Shown piece after piece: positions 13,401 through 64,000 of a DNA stretch of 64,000 bases (positions within the stretch are counted from its first letter, which is position 1; the number at the start of each line of letters is the position of its first letter). Where the stretch lies: the NCBI GenBank assembly GCA_964036295.1, contig OZ038469.1, forward strand, positions 15,247,591 through 15,311,590, given 5' to 3'. The notes beneath the pieces are model-generated. The model worked only from the letters and a program-made list of their open reading frames with translations, was not told where the DNA came from and did not search any database. The position numbers and the translations under genes are program-made. This DNA comes from Plumapathes pennacea. Taxonomy: Eukaryota > Cnidaria > Anthozoa > Antipatharia > Myriopathidae.

Positions 13401-16400
13401 AAATGATTTACTTAAATCTGCTTGTTGTTATAACAAAATTGCTACAGGAAAGCTATCAGTAATGATATTTTGATTGTTGTTCTGAGCGTAATATTGCAGT
13501 TTCTGCTAATTTAACTAGGCTAAAGTGCTGACCCAGGATTTTCCAGGGAGTTCAACTAGTTGTATAAATATAATAATAACAATAAACATTATTACTCTTG
13601 TACTTGGTAAATTGCATGTCTTGTGATGTCTTTCAGCTATCTTGAGATTTACAATGAAAAGGTGGGAGATCTGCTGAGGCCATCCAAAGGGAAAGAAAAG
13701 TTTAACCTTAAAGTTCGTGAGCACCCCAAAGAAGGGCCGTATGTGCAAGGTACATATTCTGTTACTAAATTACATATAATTTTGACATTTAAAATATTTT
13801 TTAATGGCTAAAAGGTTGGGTGTTTTACTGTCAATTGCTATCAATAACTATTGATTCTCTTTGCAGATCTGACCAAACACTTAGTTCAAGATTATGAGGG
13901 AATTGAAAAGCTCATGGAAGATGGCAATGATAACCGGTACTTAAATCATCCTGTCAGTCTAACATTGCCGGATTAGGGGAATCTCCCCAAGAGTAGAGTT
14001 GTATTGATTGAAATGCTGTGTTTTATCATTCTTTTTTCCTCCTTCCTATCTACCTCCACTCCCTCCATGTCTCATTCTCCTTGTCTCTTTTTCTACACTA
14101 TTTCCCTCTAAGATGGAACACTTGAGGATCAGCTCCAACAGTCCGTTTTAGAGAGATTTCTGTCTTAGAAAGAGTTCAGTTAAGAGTTCAGAGTAAATGA
14201 CTGAAGAAATGGCAGGGACTGCTCCTACCAGGTGTCCCTCTTAGAAAGGTGTCCGTCTTAGAAAGGTGTCCGTCTTAGAAAGGTGTCCGTCTTAGAAAGG
14301 TGTCCGTCTTAGAAAGGTGTCCCTCTTAGAAAGGTGTCCCTCTTAGAAAGGTGTCCGTCTTAGAAAGGTGTCCATCTTAGAGGGGTGTCCAAAAGAGGGA
14401 GTTGACTGTATAAGTGTGTCATAGACAGACAGCAAGTACAGTACGGTAAAAACACAATTCACACAAAACTATTTCTTTTCCAAGGACGGTTGCCTCTACC
14501 AACATGAATGATGTCAGTAGCAGGTCTCATGCCATCTTTACCATAACATTCACTCAGGTAAGCTTTTACATGGTTTTAAATCACTCTTCATGTCCCATTT
14601 GTACCTTAATGGTAACTACAATATGTCCTGAATATCCTCTTGAGGATGAAGTTTTGTTTGTCAACTCTTTTATTGTTCTCTTCTGTTGACAGGCAAAATT
14701 CTACACAGACATGCCCAGTGAAACAGTCAGCAAAATAAACTTGGTGGATCTTGCTGGAAGGTATGAGCTTTTCATAGTTCACTTTTTAACCCTTTCACTC
14801 CTTATTCCAAGTTTTTGAGTTGAGAAGAATATAAAAGGTGTATAAGGAAAAAACACAAGCCCTGTGTGTTGGAGTAAACATGTGTTATTCGTATGTTCAC
14901 ACGTTATCTGGACATCGTATGAGTTGCGCTTCATTCTGTATTATAGTGAGCGAGCTAATTCCACTGGAGCTAAGGGAGATCGGCTTAAAGAGGGCGCCAA
15001 CATCAACAAATCTTTGGTTACCTTGGGGACAGTCATCTCTAGTCTAGGTGAGTACTAGAGATCATTTTATCCGTACATCTTAATTCTAGGAATCCCAGCT
15101 TTTTCTTATAATTACTCTCAGGGCTTCTTTGAATTTGTGGGAAACAAGTTTTTCATTTTATTTATAACAGCTGAAGCGTGCGAGAACCAAGCAAAGGACC
15201 CCAAGAAGAAAGTGTTCATTCCATATCGGAATTCTGTACTAACTTGGTTGTTGAAAGACAGTCTTGGAGGAAACGCCAAAACGATCATGATTGCTGGTGA
15301 GACGGTGCATTCCGATACAACAGAGTTTTTAAAAAGAGACCCTCTATCCGTAGATGCTTTTTAATACGCGCCCAGTGACTGACGGCGGCTATTTTTGTAT
15401 CATACGAAAATGGCGGATTCTCATGTTTTTCTACGTTGTATCGCGAAATAAATCAGCACAAACTCAGAAAGTGTATTGAATACGGCAAGAAGCGACAGTC
15501 AGATCGATCAGTCATAACGTGGGCGCCTCAGGAAAGTCGAGATCCGGATGTAAATATAAACATTGGCGCGCAAATCATCTACGGTGAGAAGGTCTCTTTA
15601 ACTCTAGCTACTAACTACAGTCTGTTCAGTCTGTTGCTGTTGTTGGTAATACTGTACGTAGACCTGTGATTAAACATTGCTTCTTCCTCTTCCTTCGTTT
15701 TATCTCATTTAGCCATATCACCTGCGGATGTAAATTATTCTGAAACGCTGGGCACTCTACGGTACGCCAACAGAGCCAAGAACATCATCAACAAGCCCAC
15801 TGTTAATGAAGTGAGTATGCGGACAATCTTTAGGATTTTCAAGCGTTGCGCAAACTGCAATTCGAAATTCGAGCTTTAATTGCCGTCATTTCTGATAATT
15901 GTGAATTGGTTGGTTCTGTGGTCGGTACTATCGTTTTCAACAGAAACTGCATGAAGCGCTACTTATAACTCTGGCGCAGTGACCGCAGATTCCCGCGGTT
16001 CCTTCGATGAACTGGTACAAAAAAGCCCGCGTGTATCCTGTCGTTAACTGTGTCATATCTTATTTCCTCTCATTTTTTTCTAGGATGCAAATGTGAAACT
16101 GATCAGAGAATTGAGAGAGGAAATTGAACGCCTGAAGAATCTCCTGCAGTCAACGGACGGGGTGAGTTATGGAATGATCAACAGGAAAAATATCACCCTC
16201 GTTCCCGGCTCTTTTCCCTACCTCGTTTGAGGGGCGGGAGAGAAAAAGGGCCTAAGTAACGAGGAGGGAGAAGTTGCTGCCCGTAGTCGTTAATCAGTGT
16301 TCGTGCGGCGGCAGATTTGAACTGTATATATGTTGATGGTAACAAGTGTCAAGTTGACTGTTTTGGTCGAATGTACTTAGTGTGTCTAGAAAAAAGATCG

Positions 16401-19400: not shown

Positions 19401-21971
19401 TGCTTTGTGAGGACGTTTCGGTCGTTGGGAGCTGTGCGTAAAATAACAGTTACAACCCATAAATCGTGAAAATTATGTTAGTTACTTAGTACGCATGCGT
19501 AGTATTGTGAAGTTGTCGGCCTCGTTATTGGAGGTGCCACACAGGACGTGGGCAGAACGCCTGATGGAAATCAAACCTCCTGCACTGATCAGTCTCCATC
19601 TTACGTCTTTTGCGTTTAATCCTCTTCTATTTCTTTGAATAGCATAATAGAAACGCTCTCACCCACAATCCTTTGCGCGCCGGAATTCTCGATCTGCCAG
19701 ACCTCGAAAATTGAAATAAGTTTGGCATTCTATTTTCATCCGACTGGTTTAAGAAGATTAGTTTCATTTGGCCTAAAAGTGCTATTTATCTATTTTGCCA
19801 TCAAATTATTGTTTTTTTTTTGAGCCGTGAAAGCCATTCGTAAGTCGGCCATTAGCCTTATGTTTCGTGTATGAACCAAAACCGCCCTTCTTCTCTTTTT
19901 ACACAAACAAAAGCACTGGATTGGCTGAGAGGGCCACTTGGTTAAACGTTTCTTCAGGTCTCACAGTTGTTGTTGTTGTTGTTTTCTTCTTCTTCTTCTT
20001 TCTTTTTTGTACAGGCGGGAGTTGGAATTTCTTAGGTCGCAGCAGCTTAAAGTCGAAGAGGACCGCGTTGTTGAAGAGGAAGAACGAAAACGGGAAGCCG
20101 AACAGAGTCGTATACACGTTGAGGAACAGAAGAAATACCTGGAGGAGTTACGACAAGAGCAAGAACAGGCCAGGCAGAAAGCAGAGAACGAAATCCGGCT
20201 AGTGAGGGAGAGAATCCAACAAGAACAACAGGAGGAGAGAGAGCGGTTAGAGTCGGAGATGAAGCGGCTCCTAGCGCTGGAGGAGCAGCATAGAAACACA
20301 GTTCACGCTAAGGAGCAAGAAATGAACAAGATTAAGGAAGAGCTGGAGAAGAAATGGAACTTAGAGCGCGAGCAGGTTGAGACTCAGCGAGCCGAAGTGG
20401 AACAACTGCAACAGGAGATCGAAGCGAAGCGGCAAGAAGTGGAACAGGCGGAATACCAAGCGCGAGCCGTGGCTGAGAGAGCAAACAGATCACCCACAAA
20501 GCACTTGGAAGCCTCCGGCGGGGAAGAAAACCTCGCTGAGACGGAGGGAGGCCGGGCGGAGGTAGCGGCCAGGGTCAGAGAGGAGGAAGCCGCGAGCAAA
20601 TCGCACATCGAAGCGTTGCGTGAGCGCCTCAAACAACTCGAAGGTGAGTACGAAGACCTGCGGAAAGTTGCGCAGAAGGAGATTAAAGAAGCCAAGGAAG
20701 GCGTACAGAAAGCGGAACAAGAAGCTCTGGAAGGACTGCGGAGTCTGACTATGGGGAAATCCGCTATTGAGAGTCAGTGGCAGCGGCTTGCAGACGTACA
20801 GGCCAAGCACAGACGGCTTCAAGAACACGCCATGACTAAAATACACGATGTTAAAGAGATGCTTGAACACGCTGAAGAAGCCGAGGAAGCGTCGCTGATT
20901 GAGAAAGAAAGACTAATCATGGACAGACGCGCGGCGCGCATGAAGGTTGACGAGGCACGACGGCGCCTGGAGGAAATGGAACAAGAAGACGGCTCCCTAG
21001 AGCTAAGCGAAGCTGATTTCACTAAGAAAAGAGAGATGTTAGAGAGCGAGACTCGAGAAGAGATCAAGGATATTAAAGATGAGAGGAAGATCCTGACCGA
21101 ACTCCACTCCAAGCATCAGCACGCTCTGCAGAAGGCAACACAGATGGTGACTGAGACCAAGATCAAGCTAGAGAAACACCTGGAGAGCGAGAAACTTATT
21201 CTGGTTCCGCTTCGGGAAAAAGTAGAGAACCTTGTCAGGAATGAGCTTGGTCCCCTCATCGAGTTAGAGCACGAGATAGAGAAGCGATGCGAAGATGTGG
21301 ACCGCGAAAACCGCGACAGAAAGAAGCTGATCTACAAGCAGAGGCGGCGTATTGCGTTGCTAGAACGCCAGCACAACCACGCGCTGCAGCAAGCGGAGAA
21401 AGAGACGCTCAACGAGGAAGAGTTAGAAGAGCTAGAGAACGAGCGAGAGGCAGAGAAAAGCTTGATTCGCAAAGAGAAAATGCGGCTGCTAGAGTTGGAG
21501 AAGAAACACAAGGAACAGCAAGAAGTGGCAGAGCTGACTATTGGAGAAGCCGTGCAAGATTTGGAGAAACGCAAGGGGCGGGTAAATCAGAATCTGGAGC
21601 AAGAGCGGAAAAAGCTGACGGAGCTGGAAGCGGTGCATAAAGAAACTCTAGAGCATGTGGAACAAGAGCTGGGACAACGCACGGAAATACTCCACAGGGT
21701 CAAAGACAAGGTGCAGAAGGACAAACGACAGTTGGCCAAGCTGGACGTGCGGCAGCAGCGGTGCGCCTCCAAAGCGGCCGAGGAGCTGTTCTTGATGGCC
21801 GAGTTGCTGGAGAAGGAAATGACTGACAGAGGAAAAGCTGACGAGTTGATGAAGATCAAAGAACACAGGAAACGGCTGCAGGAGCTGGACCGGCAGTTAA
21901 AAATGGCCGAGAAGAGAGAGCGCGGTGGGCGTGGCGGGGAAGAAGGTACTGACCAGTGCATGTTGTACTGA
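10469..21971 (+). CDS. KIF16B-like kinesin-3 motor, copy 1, lacking a PX domain
   Basis: Exons: 10469-10515, 10585-10654, 10752-10838, 12531-12647, 13010-13042, 13323-13384, 13637-13749, 13867-13936, 14485-14557, 14693-14760, 14947-15047, 15171-15296, 15713-15810, 16084-16161, 16465-16596, 16739-16858, 17322-17373, 17686-17820, 17933-18015, 18203-18279, 18766-18819, 18919-18972, 20015-21971. All have GT-AG borders and matching phases, giving 1268 residues. It is a plus-end microtubule motor of the endosomal kinesin-3 type. The motor covers residues 1-~355, with P-loop GQTGAGKS, switch I NDVSSRSH and switch II DLAGSE, followed by the neck and an FHA domain (~445-560, keeping GRDD and SEHC). 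About 650 residues of charged coiled coil from the last exon complete it. Human KIF16B ends in a PI3P-binding PX domain. Here the frame stops at 21969-21971 inside a minisatellite, and no PX coding is seen in the next 3 kb. The start is supported by [12 protein letters not shown], shared with copy 2 and with KIF16B. Confidence 0.9.
14120..14415. repeat. GTGTCCGTCTTAGA-family repeat with internal 17 bp VNTR
   Basis: Lies in the kinesin copy 1 intron 13937-14484. Between 14230 and about 14390 the 17 bp unit AGGTGTCCGTCTTAGAA is repeated 9-10 times with single-base G/C/A variants. The flanks (TCCGTTTTAGAGAG on the left, GACTGAAGAAATGGCAGGGA inside, GAGTTGACTGTA on the right) match single-copy relatives at 27715-27880, 38693-38833 and 52068-52262. 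This is therefore one dispersed family whose unit expanded here. Confidence 0.8.
16195..16264. mobile_element. older copy of the CCTCGTTCCCAGGCTCTTT foldback element
   Basis: CCTCGTTCCCGGCTCTTTTC on the left faces AGAAAAAGGGCCTAAGTAAC GAGG on the right, with a GC-rich centre. It matches the cleaner copy at 45434-45511 but is diverged. It lies in the kinesin copy 1 intron after exon 14. Confidence 0.6.
16880..17160. mobile_element. degraded copies of the GACTGTCGAAAGTAATCGTG element
   Basis: CATGACTGTCGAAAGTAATTGTG at 16889 and CATGACTATCGAACATAATCGTG at about 17081 match the end of the intact element at 23838-24151. The matching internal words (GTGATTGCTTTGACTTTGCG, GATTGGTCC) are also present. 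A TGTGTTGTGTTG simple repeat lies between the two. Intronic, in kinesin copy 1. Confidence 0.55.
18036..18180. mobile_element. partial copy of the AACCCTTTCACTCCC MITE family
   Basis: The internal words CTCCTTCAGTTTCTCACCAG, TTTGATACCTTGCTCAGATG and TATCAATTCTCACTACAT occur in the same order and spacing as in the full copies at 31790-32000 and 44967-45174. Both terminal repeats are eroded. Intronic, in kinesin copy 1. Confidence 0.7.
18525..18705. repeat. GTGTTGTGTTGG low-complexity tract
   Basis: Irregular GTGTT/GGTGTG repeats fill about 180 bp of a kinesin copy 1 intron. Open frames through it are compositional artefacts. Confidence 0.8.
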
Positions 21972-28684: not shown

Positions 28685-31600
28685 ATGGCTTCAGTTAAAG
28701 TCGCTGTACGGGTTAGGCCCATAAACAAAAGGTACGACGCGTGGAAGTAGTTCTGTGTGTTGACTTCGTGCGTATAATTATTTTTTAGCGACTCATCTTC
28801 GCATTATAATTGAGTGTCAATTTATAATTCAGGGAGCGCGATCTTGGCGCAAAAATGATAATTGAAATGGAAGGACGGAAGACGAGAATAGTCAACATTA
28901 AGGTAATACTGTAGAGTCTGTCTCCAAGCAGCATCTGAAGTACTTTAGTTCTTTATGAATAAGACTACTTGTAGCCTGGTGGAGCCAGAACTTGCTGTGT
29001 TTACACGTTGTATCCCGTTTTGTTTCGTTCCTATCAGGCAAGCAATGTAACCGGCGATGGCGAAAGGAGAAACAGAGTGAAAGATTTCTCTTTCGACTTT
29101 TCGTATTGGTCAGCTGATGAACGAAGTCGAAATTACTCATCGCAGGAGCGAGTAAGTGAAAATGAATGGGGATAAAAGATTGGTTAATTGTTTCATTGGC
29201 CAATATCTTCAGTATTTCTTAGGCGAATGTAGTGATTGCAAGTTAGAATAATTCACACGTGTACAGCATACAAGTAGAAGCTGAGGCTCAAGATATACTT
29301 GAAGACCTGCATTATAATTTCTAGTTATTTCCTTATGCAAATATTTTTTCTATGCGCGTGTGTGCAGTTTGTCGTCATGATGCATTTGCGTGTTTGACAT
29401 TCGAGGCCCTTCAAACTTTAGTGCCGCTCTTCCAGTACTCTTCAAAATTATTCGTTTCTCTAGAAATTTCTGTTCTGTTCCTTTCCTTTTTGTGTGCAAA
29501 TTAGAACTGTTTACTTTTCGACAAGACACGCCTCATCGACTTTCATCGGCTTTCTTGTACAATAGATCGAGCTATGAGGTCAGTGTCAATCAAGTACACC
29601 TATAGAAATGCTCAATTACAGCCTAATTCTGTGTTTGCTAGCTTTGTCATTTGAAAGTCGAATATTTTTAATGTTTTAAACAAATTATTATCGAAGTCTG
29701 ATATTAGATGGAGGATCACGTGATGACCAAAATGAATCAAAATGAATCGTACAGCTTTTTAGATGTATTTTACTATTCAAGTTGATATCTTAAGTACTTA
29801 TTGATAGTTTTTCCCGACTTTCACTTTGATTTTTAATTTCTAAAGGAATGTCTGCTGTACATAATGTTATTACTTGAATGTGTGCTATAAATAAAATTCA
29901 GATTGAGTGTGAATGGATGTCAACAAAAGCTTAGGCTCTCAAAGGAAAATTTCTATTGCTCCAATATTATGTCAGTGCTTCATTCCTTATTTGTTCTGGT
30001 ACATGTGTTCAATATTAGGGATAAGATTAATCTATTAGTTGCACAAAAACTTTGACATGTATTAATTCATGTGTGTGGCTTTTTTGGATCAGGCATGGGT
30101 AATCTTTTTAGAACAACGTATATTTAATTTGTTTGGCAGGCAGGTGTTATTTTTCTCTGCCATATGCTCCCACTCTCCAAGGCATATCTTTATTTTGTTA
30201 CCCCCTTTTTTGTTTTATCCAAAAGTTTTATTTTATGAAGAAATCAATACATGTTTTCTTTTCTGAAGTTTTAGCATTACTTTTGATCAGATGGCTATGA
30301 CAGCTTGGAGGTTGTGATTCAAATCTCAGTTGCACCTGAATATACTGTGGGTTTTGATTAATAGTTAATGAGATCAGATAGCAAGAATTGCCAGTGATGA
30401 TATTTTTTACCCATTTCTTGCTCAGAATGTAAAATATTTTTTCTGTCTTGCTACCCATGGGCTAGCAGATATTACTAGCATAGTAACACAGATTCAGTGA
30501 TCTTTAGCTCTGAACATAAACCTCTTCTCATTGTCATAATCCAGTGCAGATGTCATATTTTTTTTCACACCCCATATTGCATAAATTACAGAAACTAAAT
30601 TACTATATTCTTAGTCATTTTTTGATACAGTTGTGTGGATATAGAAGTAGGGTGTTCTGACGAAACACACCAACCTTACTATAAATGGGGAAATTGAAAG
30701 TCTCCTATCCCATTGGGCACCAAACAAACTTTGTTGCATGCCCAGCAATATTGTATGATTGGGAGAATTTGTTTTTATGAACTCAGAAATGAATAAGGGT
30801 TAGCATAAATATCAACTGCCACGCAGTAATTTAAATGATATCTTTTTCACAGGTTTTCAAAGACTTGGGCACAGATGTTTTGAAAGCAGCGTTTGAGGGT
30901 TACAATGCCTGTATCTTTGCCTACGGACAAACGGGATCAGGAAAGACACACAGTATGATGGGAGTTCCTGGAAATGAGGGGCTAATTCCTAGAATTTGTG
31001 AGGGGTTATTCTATCGCATGAGAACTAACTCGGAGGAAGGCCTGTCCTACCGAACAGAAGTGAGTTTTCTGGAAATTTACAAGGAACATGTCAGAGACTT
31101 GTTGCGACCTCCAGTAAAAGGAAGATCCATCCATTCTTTGAGAGTGCGAGAGCATCCTAAAGATGGACCATATGTTCAAGGTGGGTTTAACAATTTTTGC
31201 GGGTGTTTGTTACTCTTTTTAACCTCAAGGAATTCAGAGCTCTGTTGCATAAAATGCCAATCTTCGGGAGTTGGCGTTAAAAAACAATGGAAACTAATTT
31301 TTCTATTAACCCTTTCACTCCCAAGAGCGATCAAGTTCAATTTTCTCCTTCAGTTTAGGCAGCACAAATATAACATACAGTAAGGAGAACTTGGCTTTTG
31401 ATACTTTGCTCAGATGATAGCTGATTAAGTTATCAATTCTCACTACATCACCCACACAATTTTCACTTAGAAGGTTGGGAGAATCTACATTTTGAACTTG
31501 GGAGTGAAAGGGTCAACACCTAGTCCTGGCAGTTAGCCTTTTATACAACTTGGCTCAGGCCTTGAGGATGTTAATGGTTTCACTTGAAATCACTGAATTA

Positions 31601-34600
31601 TTGTCTACTAGAAACAAATCTGCACAACAGCCCCAGAAAGATATAAAAATCAATGCAATGTTACATGACATAATTCCACACTCAAGTTGTTTAAATTAAT
31701 ACAGGTTTGACAAGGCATTTGGTGTCTGATTTTGATGCAATTGAACATCTGATGGATCAAGGAAACACACAAAGGTAAGAAGAACACCCTTAACCCTTTC
31801 ACTCCCAAGAGTGATCAACTTCAATTTTCTCTTTTCAGTCTCCCACCAGAGATATATCAAACAGTATGGAGAATTTGGCATTTGATACCTTGTACAAATG
31901 ACAGCTGATTAAAACATCAATTCTCATTTCATCACTCATACATTTTCTTATTTTGTGGTTGGGAGAGTTTGTATTTTGAGCTTGGGAGTGAAAGGGTTAA
32001 TACATCATGTAACTTTACATTGTACCTGATATCCAGGGGGGTAGATACACCCCAGGGATGTAAGAACCAGTGATCGACATTAACGGTTGCTTGCTATTCC
32101 CAGGGCAACCAAAAAGTTTGGTCAGGAAGGTAAATTCAAAGCCAGGCAACCAGAAATTATAAAATTTTCTATTTCTTGAAGTCAATCTAAGTCTGAGGGG
32201 CAACCAACCTAAAACCTTAATGTCAAGCACTGAGAACGGCATCATAACCCAACTGTAACCCCCTTCCCCAATTATTTATCACCATTCTCAAATTAGCATT
32301 CAAGTGCTCATTCCAGTAGGCTTACTGTGTGGCTTGAGGTTTACGTGTTAGACATTTCCCAGACTGCCCACAAGTCCCATCTTATGTCCTTCTGTTGTGT
32401 CTGGTTCATTTCTAGAGTTACGGCGAGCACCGGGATGAATGACACCAGCAGTCGCTCACATGCCATATTCACCATCAACTTCACTCAGGTTTGTGAAATC
32501 AATACTACCTTGAACAGTTTTGCAAACTAAGAAAACTTAGTGGAGAAATGATAGATGGATCATCTCTTGTATGGGTAGTAAAATAGCAGATCCCACATTC
32601 TCCTTGGCCATGTGTACCTATTTGTGGTTAAGTGCTGAATGAGAACTTTACGTAGAACTTTACATCCCCATTTAGGCAAAGTTTGATCACGACATGCCTT
32701 GTGAAACTGTGAGCAAGATAAATCTGGTGGACTTGGCAGGAAGGTAAGTGTTTCCAAAACTGTCTTCCAAGAAAGAACCTTGTCTTTTGATGAGTGAAAA
32801 AGAGAAAGATCTGAGGAAGAGGGACAGGGCCCGGTTTTTCGAAAGTCGATTAAGCTAATCCAGGATTAATGAAATTCTTTCTCTCGACCTCTGTCCCAAT
32901 AAACTGCAGAGTTTTGTTCGAAGATGGATTAGTAAGCTTGTTCCAGCTTAAAACGTTATCAAGAAAGTCGTTGTGGACGAAACTTTCATGTTTTCAGGCT
33001 TATAAATGACAAGAGAGTTTAGACCTAATCCAGAATTAGCCTAATCGTGCTTTGAAAAACTGGGCCCAGATTACTAAGATAGGATCAGAAGTAGAAGGGA
33101 AGGGAGGGAAACTCCAAATCTGAGGGAATTTTAGTTGCTCTCTTGGCTGATGTAAAATGTGTTTCTTTCTGTCTAGTGAGCGAGCGGATGCCACCAGAGC
33201 CACAGGAGAGCGGCTGAAGGAAGGAGCAATTATCAACAAATCTCTTGTCACACTTGGCACTGTTATATCTGCACTGGGTGAGTTGGGTTACTGCATTGGG
33301 TTTAAGGGTCTCATACCAATTTCCCCATGGCAACAGAACTATTTTTCAGCAAATAAAGAACTCAATACCGTTTGTGCATATGGATACAATATAAATTGAA
33401 TTTTCATCACTATAGATAGGCCTTTAATTCTGTCAATGTTTCTGTGTTACTCTGATGACATCACACTATATTTTGTTAATGAGCCTTTTTTTGTTGTTGC
33501 CTTTGCAGCTGAGGTGTCCGGTAATCTTGCATCATCTCATCAGAAGTTCGTTCCTTACAGAGACTCAGTCTTGACTTGGCTGCTCAAGGACAGCTTAGGA
33601 GGAAACTCCAAAACGATCATGATTGCCAGTAAGGGTTGATCAACTTCAATTTTGATATATTGTACTACAGATATATTGTATCAAGGAGAATTTGATGCAG
33701 TATCAGGGGCAGATCCAAGGAGAAAATCTGACTGGTTTCCAAACATGCGAGAGCTGAAAGAGTGAGCTATTAGACGGGTTGGGGACAAACTCTTCCTGAA
33801 ATCTGGCTATCCAAAATGCCGTTCCCTGTCATTTCCAGAAAATCTGAGAATCTGGTGTAAACTGGTCTTGATCCGCCCCTGAGTGTGAATATAGCTGCTT
33901 TTTGCAGACCCCTGAATGTGAATTTATATTTACATCATTCTGTACTTTCTTTTTCAGCCATATCTCCAGCTGATGTAAACTATGCTGAGACACTAAGCAC
34001 CCTGCGCTATGCCAACAGAGCAAAGAACATCATAAACAAACCCACAGTCAATGAGGTCAGTTGGCTTGGCTTTCCGTGAGTGTAAAATCCTATAGTGTAA
34101 AGTCCTAGCAATAAGCCTGCGGGCTTGTACAACTTCATGGATGGTCTTGGGGGAGGGGGGGAGACCAGTTACAATGGAAAGCTAGTACTTGGGAGAACTG
34201 ACTACACCAGCATGGATAAAGGCGTACAGTATGGTAAATAAACTAGTGGTTGATGTGTGAAAGCTGGATGCTGTGCTGACATTTTGAGTGTTAACCCTTC
34301 GTCGGAGCAAGACAAAACCATTTCAATAAATTTGATTTGGTTTCAGGATCCTAATGTCAAACTGATCAGATCGCTGAGAGAAGAGATTCAGAGACTGAAG
34401 CACTTAGTAAGTCCGGTAAGTTGACACTGCCACTCTGTGCTGCTGCAAAATCTTACTTTTTTTCCCCAGCGTATTGTTTATATTGTTGATACCAAATTCT
34501 GCGGCAAAGTTTTGTTCCTGCTTCGTTATCAAGATGACCAGGTCCTGATGTACAGTTTCAGGGGCGGATCCAGGAAAAAAATCTAACCAGTTTTTGATTG

Positions 34601-41200: not shown

Positions 41201-44200
41201 CGTTTTTGTAATCTTTTTAATGCTTGTTTGTGTGTTTGTTTTGTTTGTCAGTTTTTCTTGTCGACGCTTCTTATCGACGATTTTTTGTGTGTTTGTTTTG
41301 GAAAAAGGTCTGAACTTGAACGCCAACGAAAGCTTCATGCCATGGACGTGCAGAACATGGAAGAAGCAAGGTAAAGGAGAAAGCTTTCGGGAGAGAAAAC
41401 GTGACAACGCTTGTAATTACAGAGAACGCGCTGCCATCTTGATTTTATGGCGTTAAGCTCCTATAGTTGCATTGGTGATGTTCTGAGAATAGACCTCTTC
41501 TTCGCGTTCACAGGAAAAAAGTCAACGAAATGACCCGAAAACATAAAGAAGCCGAATATAAGAGAAAACAACAGGACGTTGAAATGAGAAAAGACATTGA
41601 AGTTCGAGAACTGGAAATCAAAAACCAACGCGAGCAGCTGGAGCGACTCCAGGAGGAGTCAGAAAAAACGAAGTACACTGCAGAGAAGGAGCTGTCGACG
41701 CTCAAAAGTGAGATCAGGAAGCAGAAAGAGAGAGAAATAATGCGAATGAGCGAAGACCTGAAGAAAATCATGGAGGCGGAGAAACAGAGGGACGAAACCA
41801 AACTGGACGCCCTTAAAGAAAAAGAGGAACTTAACGAGAAGTGGAAGAACGAATCGCGGAAGATCCACGCGCAGCGAGAGAGATTAAGACAGATGCAGAC
41901 AGATTACGACATGAAGTACAATTCACTTGAGGAGGCACGCAGGGAAGCCATGTTGGAGAGGGAGCAGTTTACGAAAGAGAAGGCGGCTGCTTTGAAAGAG
42001 CTTCACAGGAGTAAAGGACTGTTAGATGCAATGAAGAAAGAGAGAGAAGACGCGCTTAATATCGCTAACAACGACATACAAAGCCGGCGTGACGTGCTGG
42101 AGTTAGAGTTCCAAGAGCAAAAGAGGGAACTGGACGAGGAAAGGAGGAACCTGGAAGACAGGATTAATGAGAACGAAGCTAGGATGGATGCAGCGGCGGA
42201 CAATTTGGCCGATTCCCAGAATCGATTAGAGTTAAGGACTCGAGAGGAAAACGCGAAACTTGAGGAAGCCGGTGAAAATCTCAGAGCATTGGAAGAGAAG
42301 TTGTGGGAGACGACGCGAAAAGCGCAGGAAAGCTTGGAAGAGAAAAGGGCGGATTTCCTTAAGCAGGCGGCTAGCAGACGGGATCAACTGCAGAACGACA
42401 GAAAAGCTGTGGATTCTGCGACGAAGCGAATTCAAGAGTTGACTCATCAGCTACAGAGTTGCGTTGGGGAAGAGAGAACACAACTCCAACAAGAACTTGA
42501 CGTACAGTCGAAATTTGTGGAGGACCGTGAAAAATTTATTGCTTCCCGAGAGGCGGAAGAACGGAAGATTGTTGAGCGTTTTGAAAAGGAAATGGAGGAG
42601 GAGACCCAGAAATTTGAGGCGAATAAAGAACGCGATAGAACAGAGCTTGAGTTGGACAGGTTAAACATTGAAGCGCTGGAAGATTTCAAGGCGCGGCATT
42701 TAGAAGCGGACGAGCTCGACTTCAAAGCAGCGCAGGAGAAGTATAATGAAGCTAAGATGTTGTTGAATGAATGTAAAAAGAGCCTGTCTGATGTGGAGGA
42801 AAGAGAGACCCGGTTTTCTGCTAAAGCCGAGGACAGCATACTTCGTTTGACTAAGGTTTTAGAGGAAGAACTCGCATCCGAAGGAAAGCAGGATGACTTA
42901 CTCAAGCTTCGCGAGCGTAAACTGACGCTAAAGGAGATCGAAGTAGAAGGAAAACTAAGCACAGCTGGCAAACAAGAAAGCTTTTCAGCTGAGCTCGAGA
43001 GACTTTCGGAGGAGAAGAAGCGACTCCGGTACATTCTGGAGGATTCTGAGAAAACCCAAGAACGCGCCGAAGCCGAGTATAAGGAACTGCAGAGTCAATT
43101 CAAACGTGACAGAGAAGAGGAGAGGACAACCATGGAAGCCATGGAGGAGAGATTGCATGACATTGAGGAGGAGACCGATCTGTCACGCAGTCTGGCGCGG
43201 AGTTTTAGCGATGGCGATGTCACTTCAGAAAATGTCGAAGTTTTGTTAATTCGTGAAAAACGAAGGTAAGCTACTTTCATGTCGAGTTTTTTTTTTTCTG
43301 TAGATCCCTCTTTGATTCACCAAGAGTTCGAGAGTAGGAATTAGTTAGGGCTGCGAACTACTAGGCCCTGAAGAATTGCTGAACACATCACCCGGCTGTT
43401 AGAGCCATGGGGTGATAATCTCCATTGGAATTGACTTGAAACTCTCTTTTCAGAAACAAAGCGGAGATGGTGGCAAAAATCAAGGAAATCGAGGAGCAGA
43501 AAGGCCGAGAGGCGACGGAACTGCAAAAAGAGAAAGAAATGGCGCTGGCACGGCTGGAGCAGGAGAAGGCGGAGCTGGAACGACAGAGGGATGAACTGGA
43601 GAACAGTGTGGTGAAAGAAAAGGTGAGGGGGAGGGGTGGAGAGGGAAAAGACGAGAGGGAGTGGGAGAGGACATCGTAGTTTATTTCCTCACTCAGAGGT
43701 CGTTCCGCATTTGGGATTGTCAGCAAGAATTGTCTTTTGCCTCCAGTGTATAACCTTGAATGCGTCTGTGAGTTTGTTTAGCATGCAAATGAACGTGTCA
43801 GTAAAATGTTTGAAACAACTCGGAAAATGGCCCATACTAGTTTTCGTATTCATCCCCACGCAAAGATTTTGCCTGGAGACTTGAGAGTATGAGATAGTCC
43901 ATTGCATAGAAAAACGGGCCTTGCATGTTTTGTGTCGCGCTTTCAACCAAGTGACGCCAGGAAACATACGGGAGTGAAATGAAAAAGAGGTCAGAGAAGG
44001 AAAAAGAGAAAATTGTGTCTTGTTTTGTGTCTTGCCCTCAAGGTGGATCTCGACAAAGAAAGACGGATGCTGGAGAAGGAAAAACTGGACGAGATCGAGA
44101 ACATTATCCTAGAGAAGGAGATCGAGATCGAGGATTTAAAGGAAAAGGCGCAGCAAGAGATTGACGACTTACGGGAACGTCTGGATGAGACGGAAAGGTG

Positions 44201-48589: not shown

Positions 48590-49992
48590 ATTTGTTTGCT
48601 TATTTATTTATTTTCAATTTAACTCCTTACCTGAAAAGTCGAAAACTTAAAATGCAAAAGGTGTCTCATGATAAAAAGTAAACTGACGATAAAACGGCCT
48701 TTAACAGTAATTCATATACTGTTAGTGTACTCGCCAAGGTTATATTTGTGTTTACACTTATGGGTCTAATTAACGGTTCTGCAGTTGAAGTTTTCAATGC
48801 GCTTTTTGTTTGGTTTGGTCTAGGGGGGTGGGGGTGGGGGGCTAAATGCTTTGAGTGAAAACGAGCGACATTAAGTATTCGCGACACGTCAGCAATTTCG
48901 CAATTTAGGCGGGGCGGGGGGTGCATATTTCGCGATTTTCGAAATTTATAACCTGTAGATCACTTTCGATGTAATTTCAAAGTTTTAAATTTCGCGATAC
49001 ATTAGTTTCGCGACTTTTTCGTAGTCGCGAAATTGAAATGTAACGAATTGCATGTATCTATATCGGCTTAATGGCCATTTCCGCTTCGTGCGTGTCGTTT
49101 TCGCATGAACGTGACGTGAAGAGGCATCTAGGTCACTCGCCGTCTAGGCTCAGTGTGGTCTCGACTCATCGACGAGCTGGGGGGAGCACAGGCTCAATGT
49201 AGTGACAGTCCATTTGGTTCAGTATCTAAAACGATTAACTTGATTTGCTTTTGAATTTGTCTAAGGGATGAGGACCCTTACGAGATACAGCGAATATTTG
49301 ACGAACCTCCCGAGCTAACGTTTCCATCGCAACAGTACGGTTCACTTTCTGCGGAAAGCTTTGCCCAATCAGAGCCGAGGTCCCAAGGCCCCCACGACGA
49401 TAGGTGCAGGATAGCTACTTTAGACGTGCGCCATTACCGACCTGAGGAAATAAAGCTGAAGGTAGAAGGCGGTAAAATTTTAATCCACGGAAAACATTAC
49501 ACCGAACGCGCGTTTGGCTTCGATTCAAGCGAATTCCGTAGAAACTATGACCTTCCTCTAGACTGCGATGCGGAAAGTGTTTCATCTAGGATATCCTGCG
49601 ATGGAGTGCTAAAGATAGAGGCTTTGAATCAAAGTGCTCGCGGTCGACAACCCGCTGCGACTAATTTCTGCACTTCGGAAAGGGAACTATCAGACGATAA
49701 GAACTTCATCGTTGCTTTAGACATGCGCTCCTTCGCCCCAGAAGAAGTCAGCATCGAGGTTGTTAGAAATGGTCTCCGTGTTAGCGCTAAGCACGAGTCG
49801 AGAACGGATGGGCGATACTCGTCTCAGCAATTCAGCAGGCAATTTTTACTACCGAGTGACGTTGACACCGACACAGTGATTTCAAGTTGGTCCAACGACG
49901 GCGAATTGCGTATCAGGGCCGAAAGAAAAGCACCGACAGTCAACAAGGAAAGGGACATTCGTACCAAAGAGGAAGAATACTCAGGAATATAG
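47531..49992 (+). CDS. small heat-shock protein with two alpha-crystallin domains
   Basis: Exons 47531-47562 and 49266-49992 (GT-AG, phase 2) give 252 residues; only MDTKDVEICF plus part of one codon comes from exon 1, the less certain part. Two alpha-crystallin (HSP20) domains follow in tandem. The first contains DVRHYRPEEIKLKVEGGKIL and YDLPLDCDAESVSSRISCDG; the second contains ALDMRSFAPEEVSIEVVRNG and QFLLPSDVDTDTVISSWSND followed by GELRIRAE. These keep the RP-EE-I and the SDG-L-I motifs of metazoan sHSPs. Such proteins hold unfolding clients in the cytosol without ATP. Most animal sHSPs have a single such domain; two-domain forms are known, for example from parasitic flatworms. No clear I-x-I tail motif is seen (it ends EEYSGI). 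AATAAA at 50368-50373 is a likely poly(A) signal. Confidence 0.87.
48535..48620. repeat. TTTAT/TTTATTTAT microsatellite
   Basis: About 85 bp of TTTTTATTTT and TTATTTAT units in the sHSP intron. Confidence 0.85.
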
Positions 49993-58629: not shown

Positions 58630-59098
58630 GTAAGTATGATTTAAAACAGAAACCTGGAAACAAGGACTAAATATCACGTTTAAGATAAGAGTTATTGGTG
58701 TGTCGGCATATTGCAATTGACGTGTACGTCTAATAATTCGACGTACTGGAGAGGCACACTTGCAATTTATAGCATATGCCAGAGAAAATTCCACGTCGGC
58801 CTTACAATGAAGTTACACGTGAAGGCAGATTCGTGACGGGCGTGGCAGTTGTTCTCACTCCTTTTGACCCAAGCCCTCATCCAGTGTTCGTACTTTTGAT
58901 AAGCAGCGTCTGCTAAACCTCAAGAACGTGGGACAAGCTCTTGTATTTTCTTAGTCAACGTGATCATCTTCGCATTGTTATATAGTCTTGATGTGTTGAA
59001 ACTAGAGATGAAAAGTTTATGAATAATTTCTAGTACTGACCGTCGCTTATCAGAAGCCTCTGTTTCAACAGGACAACAAGAACCACCAGCTGGACTGT

Positions 59099-62000
59099 AT
59101 GGAGAAACTACATGCTCTCACCATCTCCTTGAGATTCGCAGAGAAAACCAAGAACAAGGAAATTGAAGAACGTGTTCATCGTGAATTTGGTGAGCATTAT
59201 TACTTTAAAGGAAAGTACGACGAGGCTATAGGTCATTTCAAATTGTGCCTAACTATCTCAAGACAGATTGAACATAAGCAGGGCGAAGGAGCAGCTTGTG
59301 GCAATCTTGGAGTTTGTTATATTTCTGTCGGGCATTACGAAAATGCGATTAAGTATCTTGAAATGCACCTGACTATCTCAAAAGAGATTGGAGACAAGAA
59401 AGGTGAAGGAATAGCTTATAACAATCTAGGAACTTGTCACAATTTTCTTGGCCAGTACGACAAAGGTATAAGGTATCAGGAAATGCACCTGAGTATTGCA
59501 AGAGAGATTGGAAACAAGCAAGGCGAAGGAGCAGCTTATGCCAAACTAGGAACTTGTTATAGTTTTCTCGGCCGGTACGGCATGGCTATTAAGTATTACG
59601 AAATGCACTTGACTACCGCAAAAGAGATTGGAGACAAGAAAGGTGAAAAAAAAGCTTATGGCAACCTTGGAACTTGTTATCGTATTCTCGGGCTGTACGA
59701 CAAGGCTATAGAGTATCAGGAAATGTACCTGACTACCTCAAAAGAGATTGGAGACAAGCGAGGCGAAGGGGCAGCTTATGGCAACCTGGGAAATCTTTAC
59801 TCTACTCTCGGGCAATACAACAAGGCTATTAAGTATCAGGAAATGGGCCTGAGTATTGCAAAAGCGATTAGGAACAAGAAGGGCGAAGGAGTGGCTTATG
59901 GCAACCTTGGAAGTTGTTATACTTCTCTCGGTGAATACGACAAGGCTATGAAGTACCATGAAATGTGTCTGAATATCGCAAAAGAGATTGGAGATGAGGA
60001 AATCAAAGGAAGATCTTATGGCAACCTGGGAAGTTGTTATGATTATCTCGGACAGTACGACAAGGCATTTAAGTATCAAGAAATGTGTCTGACTATCACA
60101 AAAGAGATTGGAGATAAGAAAGGTGAAGGAGTATCTTATGGCAACCTGGCAAGTTGTTATGTTGGTCTCGGCCAGTACGACATGGCTATTAAGTATCAAG
60201 AAATGTGTCTGACTATCACAAAAGAGATTGGAGATAAGAAAGGTGAAGGAATATCTTATGGCAACCTGGGAACTTGTTATGGTTATCTCGGACAGTACGA
60301 CAAGGCAATTAAGTATCAAGAAATGTGTCTGACTATCACAAAAGAGATTGGAGATAAGAAAGGTAAAGGAACATCTTATGGGAACCTGGGAACTTGTTAT
60401 GTTTTTCTCGGCCAGTACGACATGGCTATTAAGTATCATGAAATGTGTCTGACTATCATAAAAGAGATTGGAGATAAGAAAGGTGAAGGAATATCTTATG
60501 GCAACCTGGGAACTTGTTATAGTTATCTCGGACAGTACGACAAGGCAATTAAGTATCAGGAAATGTACCTGAATACCTCCAATACGATTGGAGACAAGCA
60601 AGGTGAAGGAACAGCTTATGGCAGCCTTGGGTCTTGTTATTTTTGTCTCGGACAGTACGACATGGCTATTAAGTTTCAGGAAATGCAACTGACTACCTCA
60701 AAAGAGATTGGAGACAAGCGAGGTGAAGCATCAGCTTATGGCAGCCTTGGAGCTTGTAATATTTCTATCGGTCAGTACGACAAGGCTGTAAAGTACCAGG
60801 AAATGTGTCTGACTATCGCAAAAGAGATTGGAGATAAGGAAAGCGAAGGAAGGGCTTATGGCAACCTTGGAACTTGTTATCTTTCTCTCGGTCAGTATAA
60901 CAAGGCTATTAAGTACCAGGAAATATACCTGACTATCACCAAAGAGATTGGAGATAAGAATGGCGAAGGAGTATCATATGCCAACCTTGGGAAGTTTTAT
61001 ACGTTTCGTGGCCAGTACGACAAGGCTGAAAGCAATTTAAAAAAAGCTGTGGGCTGCTTCGAAGGATTGTTTGAGAACGCACCAAAGAAAGATGAATATA
61101 GAGTTTCTTTTATTGATACATTCTTAACCACCTTCAAGGAATTGATTCAAATTCTTTTGGCTCAAGAAAAAAGAGACGAAGCTCTTATCACTGCTGAAAG
61201 AGGACGCTCGAGAGCTTTAGTTGACCTCATGCTTAGCAACAGTCTTGATGGCGATGCATTTGTCTCAAAAATCAAGGTTTTAAACCTCCATGCAATCCGT
61301 AAAGTGGTGAAAAGTCTGGGAAGTACAGTTCTATTTTGCACGTTGCATGTCTGTGATATTAGCACGTGGGTCATACAACCTAACGGAGATGTAATCTTCC
61401 AGCAATGTGGGCCTGAAGTGTCGGAGCAATCCAAAAGTATTCTTCAGAGGAAAAAGTACTTGTTCTTGCTGGCTAAGAAGGCTGTAGAGCGGATGACGTC
61501 TTGTGGGACTGTGAAATGCGAAGACCGCTCACTGTCGTTTCTTTACCCGGAAGAATCATCAAGATTTGCTAAGAAGAAACCTGAATTAGCCTGTGCCACA
61601 ATGCCAGTCGATTTGATTTTGCCACAACAAGTGACATCCAAGCTAAGGGTTCCACTTCCTGCATCAATGGAAGAACTAATCAAGCCGACGTTCTCTGTAC
61701 GAAGCGAAGCGGGAGAGACTTGCTCCAAGCCTGAGGAGCTGGATCCGATGCTGAACTCTCTGCTAAAACATTTGTACCAGCTTCTTCTGGAGCCCATACG
61801 AAGATTTGTGGTTGGGTCGCAAGCAATTGTTGTCCCTGAGGGTCCACTCGCTCTGATTCCATTTGCAGCCCTCGTAGATGAAAACGGGCACTTTGTGGCA
61901 GAATCTTTACGGGTGAGTCTTGTTCCGTCACTAACAACAGCAAAGATAATCCAAGAACGCCCAGAAGAACCGGTAGGTCAAGGGAAACCCTTAGTAATAG

Positions 62001-62638
62001 GAGACCCAGATGTCGGCGAAATTATAAAGGGTGGCAAAATAATCCCTGTGGCAAGATTATCGTCCGCAGAGAAAGAAGTCGAAGTTGTTGGTCAGTTTCT
62101 CGATGTTGAGCCACTCGTCGGGAAAAGAGCGACCAAAAAGAGGTTTCTACAAAAAGTTGAACGAGCCAGTTTGATTCACATTGCAGCGCATGGAGATGCA
62201 GAGAGGGGAGAGATCTTGCTTGCCCCTCGTTCTGGGACTAATAGAAGCAATTGCGAAGATATCATGCTGCTGATTTCTGATCTCGAACGCAAATGCATAA
62301 AGGCAAAGCTGGTCGTCCTGAGTTCCTGTTACAGCGGCCGTGGTAAAGTGAGAGGAGAGGGTGTAGTCGGCATTGCTCGTGCATTTCTCGGAGCTGGAGC
62401 TCGCGCAGTTCTTGTGACGCTATGGGCAGTTGACGATGACGCAACTCTGTGTTTTATGTATCGTTTCTACGAGTACCTGACGAGTGGAGACAGTGCCGGC
62501 GAGGCACTCAACAAAGCCATGGAAGCCATCAGAAGAATGAAGATGTTCCGTCATCCCCGCTACTGGGCTCCTTTCGTTCTCCTGGGGGAAGATGTGACTC
62601 CTTTCAAAAGAAAGTCACGACATGCCCAGCCTACGTAG
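59099..62638 (+). CDS. TPR-CHAT protein: ~16 tetratricopeptide repeats plus caspase-like CHAT protease domain
   Basis: One uninterrupted frame of 1179 residues. From about residue 21 to 650 lie 40-residue TPR-like units with consensus GEGxAYGNLGxCYxxLGQYD then KAIKYQEMCLTITKEIGDK. The DNA period is exactly 120 bp from 59161 to about 61040 without indels. A helical linker follows (ALITAERGRSRALVDLML). The C-terminal CHAT domain (~880-1165) shows IPFAALVDENGHFV, LIHIAAHGD with His1031, and VVLSSCYSG with Cys1077. These are the His-Cys dyad of clan CD proteases related to caspases and separase. It continues VVGIARAFLGAGARAVLVTL WAVDD. CHAT proteins are best known from bacteria, where some act in immune or cell-death systems; cnidarian copies are often labelled TTC28-like. 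The start is the first in-frame ATG after a splice acceptor at 59071. Substrate unknown. Confidence 0.9.
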   Translation: MEKLHALTISLRFAEKTKNKEIEERVHREFGEHYYFKGKYDEAIGHFKLCLTISRQIEHKQGEGAACGNLGVCYISVGHYENAIKYLEMHLTISKEIGDKKGEGIAYNNLGTCHNFLGQYDKGIRYQEMHLSIAREIGNKQGEGAAYAKLGTCYSFLGRYGMAIKYYEMHLTTAKEIGDKKGEKKAYGNLGTCYRILGLYDKAIEYQEMYLTTSKEIGDKRGEGAAYGNLGNLYSTLGQYNKAIKYQEMGLSIAKAIRNKKGEGVAYGNLGSCYTSLGEYDKAMKYHEMCLNIAKEIGDEEIKGRSYGNLGSCYDYLGQYDKAFKYQEMCLTITKEIGDKKGEGVSYGNLASCYVGLGQYDMAIKYQEMCLTITKEIGDKKGEGISYGNLGTCYGYLGQYDKAIKYQEMCLTITKEIGDKKGKGTSYGNLGTCYVFLGQYDMAIKYHEMCLTIIKEIGDKKGEGISYGNLGTCYSYLGQYDKAIKYQEMYLNTSNTIGDKQGEGTAYGSLGSCYFCLGQYDMAIKFQEMQLTTSKEIGDKRGEASAYGSLGACNISIGQYDKAVKYQEMCLTIAKEIGDKESEGRAYGNLGTCYLSLGQYNKAIKYQEIYLTITKEIGDKNGEGVSYANLGKFYTFRGQYDKAESNLKKAVGCFEGLFENAPKKDEYRVSFIDTFLTTFKELIQILLAQEKRDEALITAERGRSRALVDLMLSNSLDGDAFVSKIKVLNLHAIRKVVKSLGSTVLFCTLHVCDISTWVIQPNGDVIFQQCGPEVSEQSKSILQRKKYLFLLAKKAVERMTSCGTVKCEDRSLSFLYPEESSRFAKKKPELACATMPVDLILPQQVTSKLRVPLPASMEELIKPTFSVRSEAGETCSKPEELDPMLNSLLKHLYQLLLEPIRRFVVGSQAIVVPEGPLALIPFAALVDENGHFVAESLRVSLVPSLTTAKIIQERPEEPVGQGKPLVIGDPDVGEIIKGGKIIPVARLSSAEKEVEVVGQFLDVEPLVGKRATKKRFLQKVERASLIHIAAHGDAERGEILLAPRSGTNRSNCEDIMLLISDLERKCIKAKLVVLSSCYSGRGKVRGEGVVGIARAFLGAGARAVLVTLWAVDDDATLCFMYRFYEYLTSGDSAGEALNKAMEAIRRMKMFRHPRYWAPFVLLGEDVTPFKRKSRHAQPT

Positions 62639-63101
62639 GACAAATTCTTGGGTAGTTTTGGACAACTTTTATTGTAGTCCTAATTGTTAAAAGCCTTTGG
62701 TATTATTATTGTAAAGATTATATCTATTTTTATATAGATTATATCTATTTTCATTAAGAAAAGGCCAACGCATCTCAAATACATTTTAGTATAGCCGGTC
62801 CTATTTTATTTTACAGGAATTTAGAATTATTTTCTAATCTGATCGGACCGGGCATATGGTCCAAATATAGTATATAGTCAAATATAAATGTTAATTGCTC
62901 GTGGCGAAGCCGACGAGCTTAGGATTGGAAAGCGTGTCTTTATCATCGTCATATTTTTATTTTTATTTTTATTTTTTTTCTGGGTTACGAATCAGCACAC
63001 GGTGATTGGTTCATATTATCACGTGCTGGGCGATGACGTAATTGACTTCGCTAAACAACTCGAGATGTGGCCAGTGAATTGCTCGTTACTTGTGTGTAAA
63101 A
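62639..63101. other. downstream spacer of the TPR-CHAT gene
   Basis: AT-rich, with a TATATAGATTATATCTATTTT repeat-like stretch near 62718-62755 and a TTTTTAT run near 62955-62980. I saw no exact AATAAA signal and no gene. Confidence 0.45.
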
Positions 63102-63366
63102 GTTAACTGCATCCCATCCAAACTCAACACCATTTGGCTCTGTGGAATGCGCACGGATAAACTGGATTTTCGGGAACGATTTTGGCTCGCGTTCACCGCG
63201 GAAGCTTTGAGAATAGCCGTAAACAAATATTTGATGGTACCGCTGTCGCCGATAAATATTTAGTCCCGACGAAACTTTCTGTGGCGACACGAAATACTTT
63301 TGGGAAGATAACAGGGCGAAAACAGAAACCAAAGCTACGGTGAGCTTTAGCCGTAAAACAATGACG
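63102..63366. repeat. direct repeat, unit 1 of 2
   Basis: Begins GTTAACTGCATCCC and ends GCCGTAAAACAATGACG. It matches 63715-64000 at high identity in the same orientation, differing mainly by a 22 bp indel after GATGGTAC. No recognised coding content; open frames on the minus strand are parallel in both units. Confidence 0.9.
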
Positions 63367-63714: not shown

Positions 63715-64000
63715 AAGTAAACTGCATCCATTCAAATTCAACGCCATTTGGCTCTGTGGAATGCGCACGGATAAACTGGATTTTAGGAAAAGATTTTGGC
63801 TCGCGTTCACCGCACAAGCTTTGAGAATAGCCGTAAACAAATGTTTGATGGTACTTCTGGGGTATTGCAAATATCTCTGTCGCCGATAAGTATTTAGTCC
63901 CGACGAAACTTTCTGTGGCGACAAGAAATACTTTTGGGAAGATAACAGGGCGAAAACAGAAACCAAAGCTACGGTGAGCTTTAGCCGTAAAACAATGACG
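63715..64000. repeat. direct repeat, unit 2 of 2 (runs to the window edge)
   Basis: GTAAACTGCATCCATTCAAA through GCCGTAAAACAATGACG. Contains the extra TTCTGGGGTATTGCAAATAT segment. The window stops exactly at the last base matched in unit 1, so its true end is unknown. Confidence 0.9.

Follow-up and report, generated by a model that had tools for sequence, protein, structure and literature searches.

The 64-kb window analysed here (contig 8, 15247591-15311590, of the 290-Mb Plumapathes pennacea genome in 24 contigs) contains a TPR-CHAT gene, in which a long array of tetratricopeptide repeats (TPR) is followed by a single C-terminal CHAT domain. We propose that its product is a one-chain sensor-protease under diversifying selection with a putative role as an immune sensor in defence, a reading drawn from sequence and analogy to which we give an even chance of being right. 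Within a family already described, the window gene is an unremarkable copy; the point of interest is the selection pattern of the family, not this copy. What is new here is a His-Cys dyad kept in all 57 sampled paralogs, a CHAT model with structural likeness to Csx29 and separase, and fast-evolving positions on the concave face of the TPR units. An intact dyad and fast change on the face expected to bind the ligand make the published suggestion that coral TPR-CHATs are immune receptors directly testable, and the pattern ties animal TPR-CHATs to the sensor-proteases by which fungi and bacteria trigger cell death.

The open reading frame runs from an ATG to a stop codon. Pfam matches the protein to TPR_12 (2.3e-115) and to CHAT (1.1e-55; 189.5 bits against a cut-off of 24), and the domain order, one CHAT domain C-terminal to a long TPR array, is that of TTC28-like proteins; no NACHT or NB-ARC match was found by Pfam in the protein. 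The 16 TPR units keep an exact register of 40 residues, the first unit being weak, and at the DNA level the array appears as 14 copies with a period of 120 (59348-61027). PADLOC returned a generic TPR model plus two weak matches, and among 20 NCBIfam families only the generic TPR_END_plus exceeded its cut-off. The preliminary description of this DNA had placed about 16 TPR units, together with a CHAT domain holding His1031 (in IAAHG) and Cys1077 (in LSSCYSG), in one exon, and the register, the Pfam matches and the motifs all agree with it. Because the frame is open and the dyad is intact, we rejected a pseudogene. A local tandem cluster was rejected as well, since tblastn at an E-value of 1 found no further TPR-CHAT copy within the 64 kb and the nearest listed copy on contig 8 lies about 0.9 Mb away.

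Positions 2, 5, 9, 12, 13, 33 and 34 of TPR units are reported to be the most variable and to lie on the concave face (PMC1261162). We took positions 2, 5, 9, 12 and 13 as a narrow concave set, leaving out 33 and 34 because they may not map on the 40-residue unit. Between the units of the window gene, the proportion of non-synonymous differences (pN) is 0.503 at the concave set and 0.159 at the other positions, and the proportion of synonymous differences (pS) over all positions is 0.316; the ratio of the corresponding rates (dN/dS) is 2.03 at the concave set against 0.43 elsewhere, and reaches 4.28 at that set in the four most similar units. Random sets of five positions attained the window value in 6 of 100,000 draws (2 of 100,000 in a repeat run), and bootstrapping the units placed pN minus pS between 0.120 and 0.248. 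Counts on a tree of the units gave 47 non-synonymous changes, whereas the synonymous rate predicts 25.8 (Poisson p 1.2e-4, assuming independence).

The family behaves in the same way. With at least six TPR units required, 39 of 58 genes were usable, the window gene included; concave pN exceeded that of the rest in all 39 and pS in 33, and shuffling the position labels gave a value of at most 0.01 in 32. Leaving the window gene aside, the figures are 38/38 over the rest and 32/38 over pS. Related paralogs were compared in 41 of 51 possible pairs from 13 groups, the other ten pairs lacking TPR units. There, pN exceeded pS at the concave set in 36 of 41 pairs, in the rest of the TPR part in one and in CHAT in none, with median pN/pS of 1.41, 0.46 and 0.32, respectively; with each group represented by its first usable pair, the concave set exceeded pS in 10 of 13. 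CHAT is thus, by these sequence counts, under purifying selection between related copies. The preliminary description had supposed a pathogen- or stress-sensing protease; the pattern of selection fits a sensor.

The protease part keeps its dyad: His and Cys are both present in 57/57 sampled paralogs, and among 87 bacterial CHATs His is found in 86 and Cys in 87. An AlphaFold2 model of residues 641-1179 (pLDDT 76.8, pTM 0.79) places His1031 and Cys1077 each directly after a strand, an arrangement that fits the caspase-hemoglobinase fold; a full-length fold predicted without an alignment was of poor quality (pLDDT 38.8) and was set aside. Foldseek returned 44 hits to the PDB for the CHAT model at E of 0.001 or less, led by Csx29 (2.5e-12, probability 1.00, TM score 0.49) and then separase, with DdvA CHAT protein, SAVED-CHAT, gingipain R and three ciliary central pair chains among the further hits. 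With TM scores of at most 0.49 and root-mean-square deviations of 9-24 A, these hits back the fold and not its details. In a profile search of PDB sequences, the sole CHAT entry found was 8rot (5.5e-09), the other nine being designed or consensus TPRs. The window CHAT is a putative cysteine-protease domain with its His-Cys dyad kept, for which proteolysis is predicted, and the earlier likening of this intact-dyad TPR-CHAT protein to the Craspase protease is borne out by Csx29 as the top structural hit.

We propose the following mechanism. The concave face of the TPR array would bind a variable ligand, be it microbial, symbiont-derived or non-self, and binding would, on the model of Csx29, release the CHAT active site from autoinhibition. 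The freed protease might then cut a host substrate and start a defence or cell-death response, a gasdermin being a possible substrate without a direct link. The reading of the protein as sensor plus protease is made by analogy with three described cases. In Csx29, the dyad residues are about 7 A apart and approach to about 3 A after non-self target binding (PMC9729208); in Podospora, a TPR-bearing CHAT protease activates a gasdermin (PMC12881547); and the TPRs of fungal NLRs are reported to be under positive selection on their concave face (PMC4986451). TTC28-like TPRs are also reported fused to TRADD-N conflict domains (PMC8195603). A bolder extension, which we regard as somewhat improbable, is an innate repertoire that does without NLRs and whose receptors each carry their own protease: more than 100 single-coding-exon TPR-CHAT genes would diversify their TPR faces by unit duplication and positive selection, in the manner of conflict sensors of fungi and bacteria, and would converge on a few death substrates, such as the product of one gasdermin locus, possibly in allorecognition or symbiont control.

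Csx29 of the type III-E CRISPR system (Craspase) shares the TPR-CHAT fold and the His-Cys dyad and is the best structural match; however, identity is only 11-13%, the TM score is that given above at best, and the window protein has its 16 TPR units in exact register. Csx29 is encoded beside Cas7-11/gRAMP and Csx30; among the 10 of 158 frames scanned in the window, which matched kinesin, O-fucosyltransferase, HSP20, FKBP or nothing, no Cas family or other CRISPR partner was found. Fungal and bacterial gasdermin-activating CHAT proteases have the same sensor-protease logic, with TPR or other repeats joined to CHAT (PMC12881547), but there protease and gasdermin are often clustered, whereas here the gasdermin matches are on another contig. 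The TPR receptors of fungal nonself recognition (PMC4986451) resemble the window protein in their near-alike tandem units and concave positive selection, and differ in that a C-terminal CHAT serves as the putative effector of the window protein. The protease part is matched in Foldseek by separase, which is 12-16% identical to the window CHAT and is a protease essential to the cell cycle (PMC9729208).

Several points weigh against the sensor-protease reading. The narrow set was fixed after the variability table of the window gene had been seen, so for this gene the test was not blind. When positions 33 and 34 are included, dN/dS falls to 1.29 and 151 of 100,000 sets reach it, and the wider set exceeds pS in 25 of the 38 other genes; these two positions are not variable in the 40-residue numbering used, and position 27 is very variable though outside the concave set. 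Even the narrow set fails to exceed pS in 6/38 genes and 5/41 pairs, and the concave codons taken by themselves have a low pS (0.121). The selection methods are counts, the paralogs are non-independent, and the comparison was made on CHAT-linked TPR arrays, without a non-CHAT TPR control. Variability at concave positions is general for TPRs (PMC1261162), so only a rate above pS is telling. Cyanobacterial TPR-CHAT arrays behave alike (24 of 24 usable arrays over the rest and 14 of 24 over pS, from 87 bacterial loci), and because they show the same direction, the pattern is not special to this animal. The activity, ligand and substrate of the window copy are putative. Finally, a gasdermin search of the genome gave two adjacent matches that form one locus (contig 9, 3748206-3749249), and none of the 14 control genomes gave a match; no gasdermin was found beside the window gene, and about 0.74 Mb separates the sole locus found from the closest TPR-CHAT listed on contig 9, the window being on contig 8.

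Two other roles have to be weighed. The copies may be TTC28-like scaffolds that act in cytokinesis, the cytoskeleton or development, their TPR variation reflecting the choice of host partners rather than non-self sensing. Indeed, the putative human relative TTC28/TPRBK acts in cytokinesis (PMC12314368), which also counts against a sensor-protease, and the authors of a Montipora study propose a cell-cycle role (PMC9145168). We consider a scaffold unlikely, since conflict would account better than housekeeping for the at least 150 places listed in a single genome, for a dyad intact in every sampled copy and for ligand-facing positions that change faster than the synonymous rate. Alternatively, the repertoire may sense symbionts or abiotic stress and cut signalling proteins without killing the cell. 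In corals given a bleaching-mitigating actinobacterium, 56 TTC28-like genes were differentially expressed, mostly downwards (PMC10668361), and a TTC28 gene is tabled under symbiosis among loci under selection (PMC10363134). A change of expression, however, does not show mechanism, and we counted the same 56 genes for the sensor-protease reading as well; signalling in symbiosis or environmental response seems to us just as unlikely as the scaffold.

The third alternative concerns the descent of the window copy, which would have been acquired horizontally or would be a processed retrocopy. This view draws on the single coding exon and on bacterial CHATs with up to 37% identity, a figure from the best 80 of 516 matches, which lean to cyanobacteria because the query used (A2) included cyanobacterial rows. 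In a quick tree that combined the window CHAT with 57 paralogs and 87 bacterial CHATs, however, a branch with SH-aLRT 99 sets the 58 rows of this genome apart, and the window CHAT sits among 27 paralogs in a smaller set (SH-aLRT 99). The tree was midpoint-rooted and without bootstrap, and the tool warned of two long proteobacterial rows (L004, L005) that attach close to the animal ones; for these reasons, it says nothing on the origin of the family. Moreover, the listed CHAT matches, at least 135, are also one frame each, with a stop in one, and 16 of the 18 family members scored have an acceptor-like site 5' of the ATG. Private transfer of the window copy was rejected because its CHAT groups with 57 paralogs, apart from the bacterial rows, and the genome holds at least 150 family places; private retroposition was rejected because the listed paralogs are mostly single-frame and most of the family members scored have the acceptor-like site. 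The sequence data thus already contradict the view of the preliminary description that the copy was gained in either way, and we hold it very improbable. The phylogeny that the description had proposed was run here against bacterial CHATs, with the grouping just given. A plasmid search with the window CHAT alone gave 184 matching records, the best mostly cyanobacterial at 30-35% identity; no relative was found in single-protein scans of genome contigs and viral contigs, nor in a phage search. At three plasmid loci (L001, L002, L007), cyanobacterial TPR-CHAT genes adjoin an annotated caspase-family (peptidase C14) gene.

The window gene is one member of a large animal, probably anthozoan, TPR-CHAT family. 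A whole-protein search of the genome gave at least 81 matches (best 38 of 781 candidates scored) and a search with the linker at least 150 places, the window's own included (best 150 of 288 scored). A Pfam CHAT search gave at least 135 places, all over the cut-off (best 135 of 317 scored); the count is a lower bound because the window's own CHAT, at 189.5 bits, scores under the last listed row (192.7). The listed CHAT places lie in open frames of 319-2837 aa; among the listed linker places, one of 150 has a stop and seven are in frames under 600 aa, most being in long single frames. All these counts are lower bounds that favour uninterrupted copies and may include assembly duplicates; intron-broken CHAT genes, such as canonical TTC28, may escape the searches, and the single-frame tally leans to intact copies because the best-scoring candidates alone were scored. 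The 57 paralogs comprise 7 loci and 20 picked regions from the protein search and 30 loci from the CHAT search, all best-scoring; the picked regions left out the longest frames and identical copies, and for many genes the CHAT-search loci cover no more than about 785 aa, so that their TPR arrays are shortened. On contig 6 (18282647-18585266), three TPR-CHAT copies with identical match scores lie 134-166 kb apart, representing either a recent segmental duplication or an assembly duplication. A search of the genome for the GFP family, intended as a check on an anthozoan source, gave no match at E of 0.001, and its control genomes gave none either.

Such a family has been described. Two Acropora species are reported to have 276 and 304 TPR-CHAT genes and Pocillopora effusa 362; Nematostella has 15, and most animals outside the Anthozoa have 1-2 (PMC12314368). 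The expansion is in print for Acropora, Pocillopora and Montipora (PMC12314368, PMC9145168, PMC6208414), and immune or apoptotic roles have been suggested. The window protein shares with the coral TTC28-like proteins the same domain order, a single CHAT behind a long TPR array, and a family of up to hundreds of copies (PMC12314368), and we found no difference that bars it from membership. The earlier label of an undescribed animal system is therefore superseded by the published expansion. No dyad census, coding-exon structure or concave-face selection analysis of animal TPR-CHATs was found in the literature outside supplements and most subscription journals.

Upstream of the coding region, which is free of introns as first described, splice-like sites suggest an intron in the 5' untranslated region (5'UTR) and an untranslated first exon. 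The acceptor-like TTTCAACAG is followed by GACAAC and lies 27 nt 5' of the ATG, so that the predicted exon begins at 59072. An acceptor-like site is present 8-44 nt 5' of the ATG in 16/18 family genes, the window gene included, against 50/233 shifted windows; the score was ad hoc, with its threshold set in the script, and took 18 of 21 genes, leaving out L015 (short upstream) and L038 and L047 (motif within the gene). In loci L021 and L023, a stop codon lies directly 5' of the ATG, so the stretch from acceptor to ATG is untranslated there. A donor-like motif occurs in 6/21 genes at differing distances, and the donor end of the intron is thus a guess. The simplest view suggested by these sites is one coding exon behind a non-coding exon, copied as DNA; the acceptor-like site shared by the family argues against a processed retrocopy.

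Table 1. Coordinates of the TPR-CHAT gene and its parts within the window
Feature	Position	Strand	Basis or remark
Predicted 5'UTR intron	58630..59071	+	Donor-like GTAAGTATG at 58630; acceptor-like TTTCAACAG ends at 59071
TPR-CHAT coding sequence, 1179 aa, single coding exon	59099..62638	+	Open reading frame; similar start motif in 21/58 family loci
TPR array, 16 units (residues 12-651)	59132..61051	+	Most variable unit positions 2, 9, 12, 13, 27
Linker between TPR and CHAT (residues 652-887)	61052..61759	+	Family-conserved; model confidence partly low
CHAT domain (residues 888-1164)	61760..62590	+	Pfam PF12770; AlphaFold2 model; Foldseek
His1031 codon, catalytic His by motif	62189..62191	+	IAAHG
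Cys1077 codon, catalytic Cys by motif	62327..62329	+	LSSCYSG

The contrast first drawn between this single-exon gene and multi-exon neighbours is weaker than claimed, as two neighbouring frames are also single and open. One, of 497 aa, has an O-fucosyltransferase domain (PF10250; 25226-26719, minus strand), and the other encodes a small heat shock protein of 245 aa with two HSP20 stretches (49255-49992, plus strand). Kinesin motor exons at 15059-15364, 30835-31383 and 33151-33399 (plus strand) probably belong to two tandem kinesin genes, and two long frames (19929-21971 and 41479-43269) look coiled coil-like by eye and matched no Pfam family. Downstream of the TPR-CHAT gene, a repeat pair (63114-63366 and 63728-64000) lies 614-634 bp apart and is 92-97% alike. 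Searched with 63100-63366, the genome gave at least 40 places at 99-100% identity, one of them the query itself (best 40 of 1710 candidates scored); the repeat is read as a young, abundant mobile element, perhaps resembling those with long terminal repeats.

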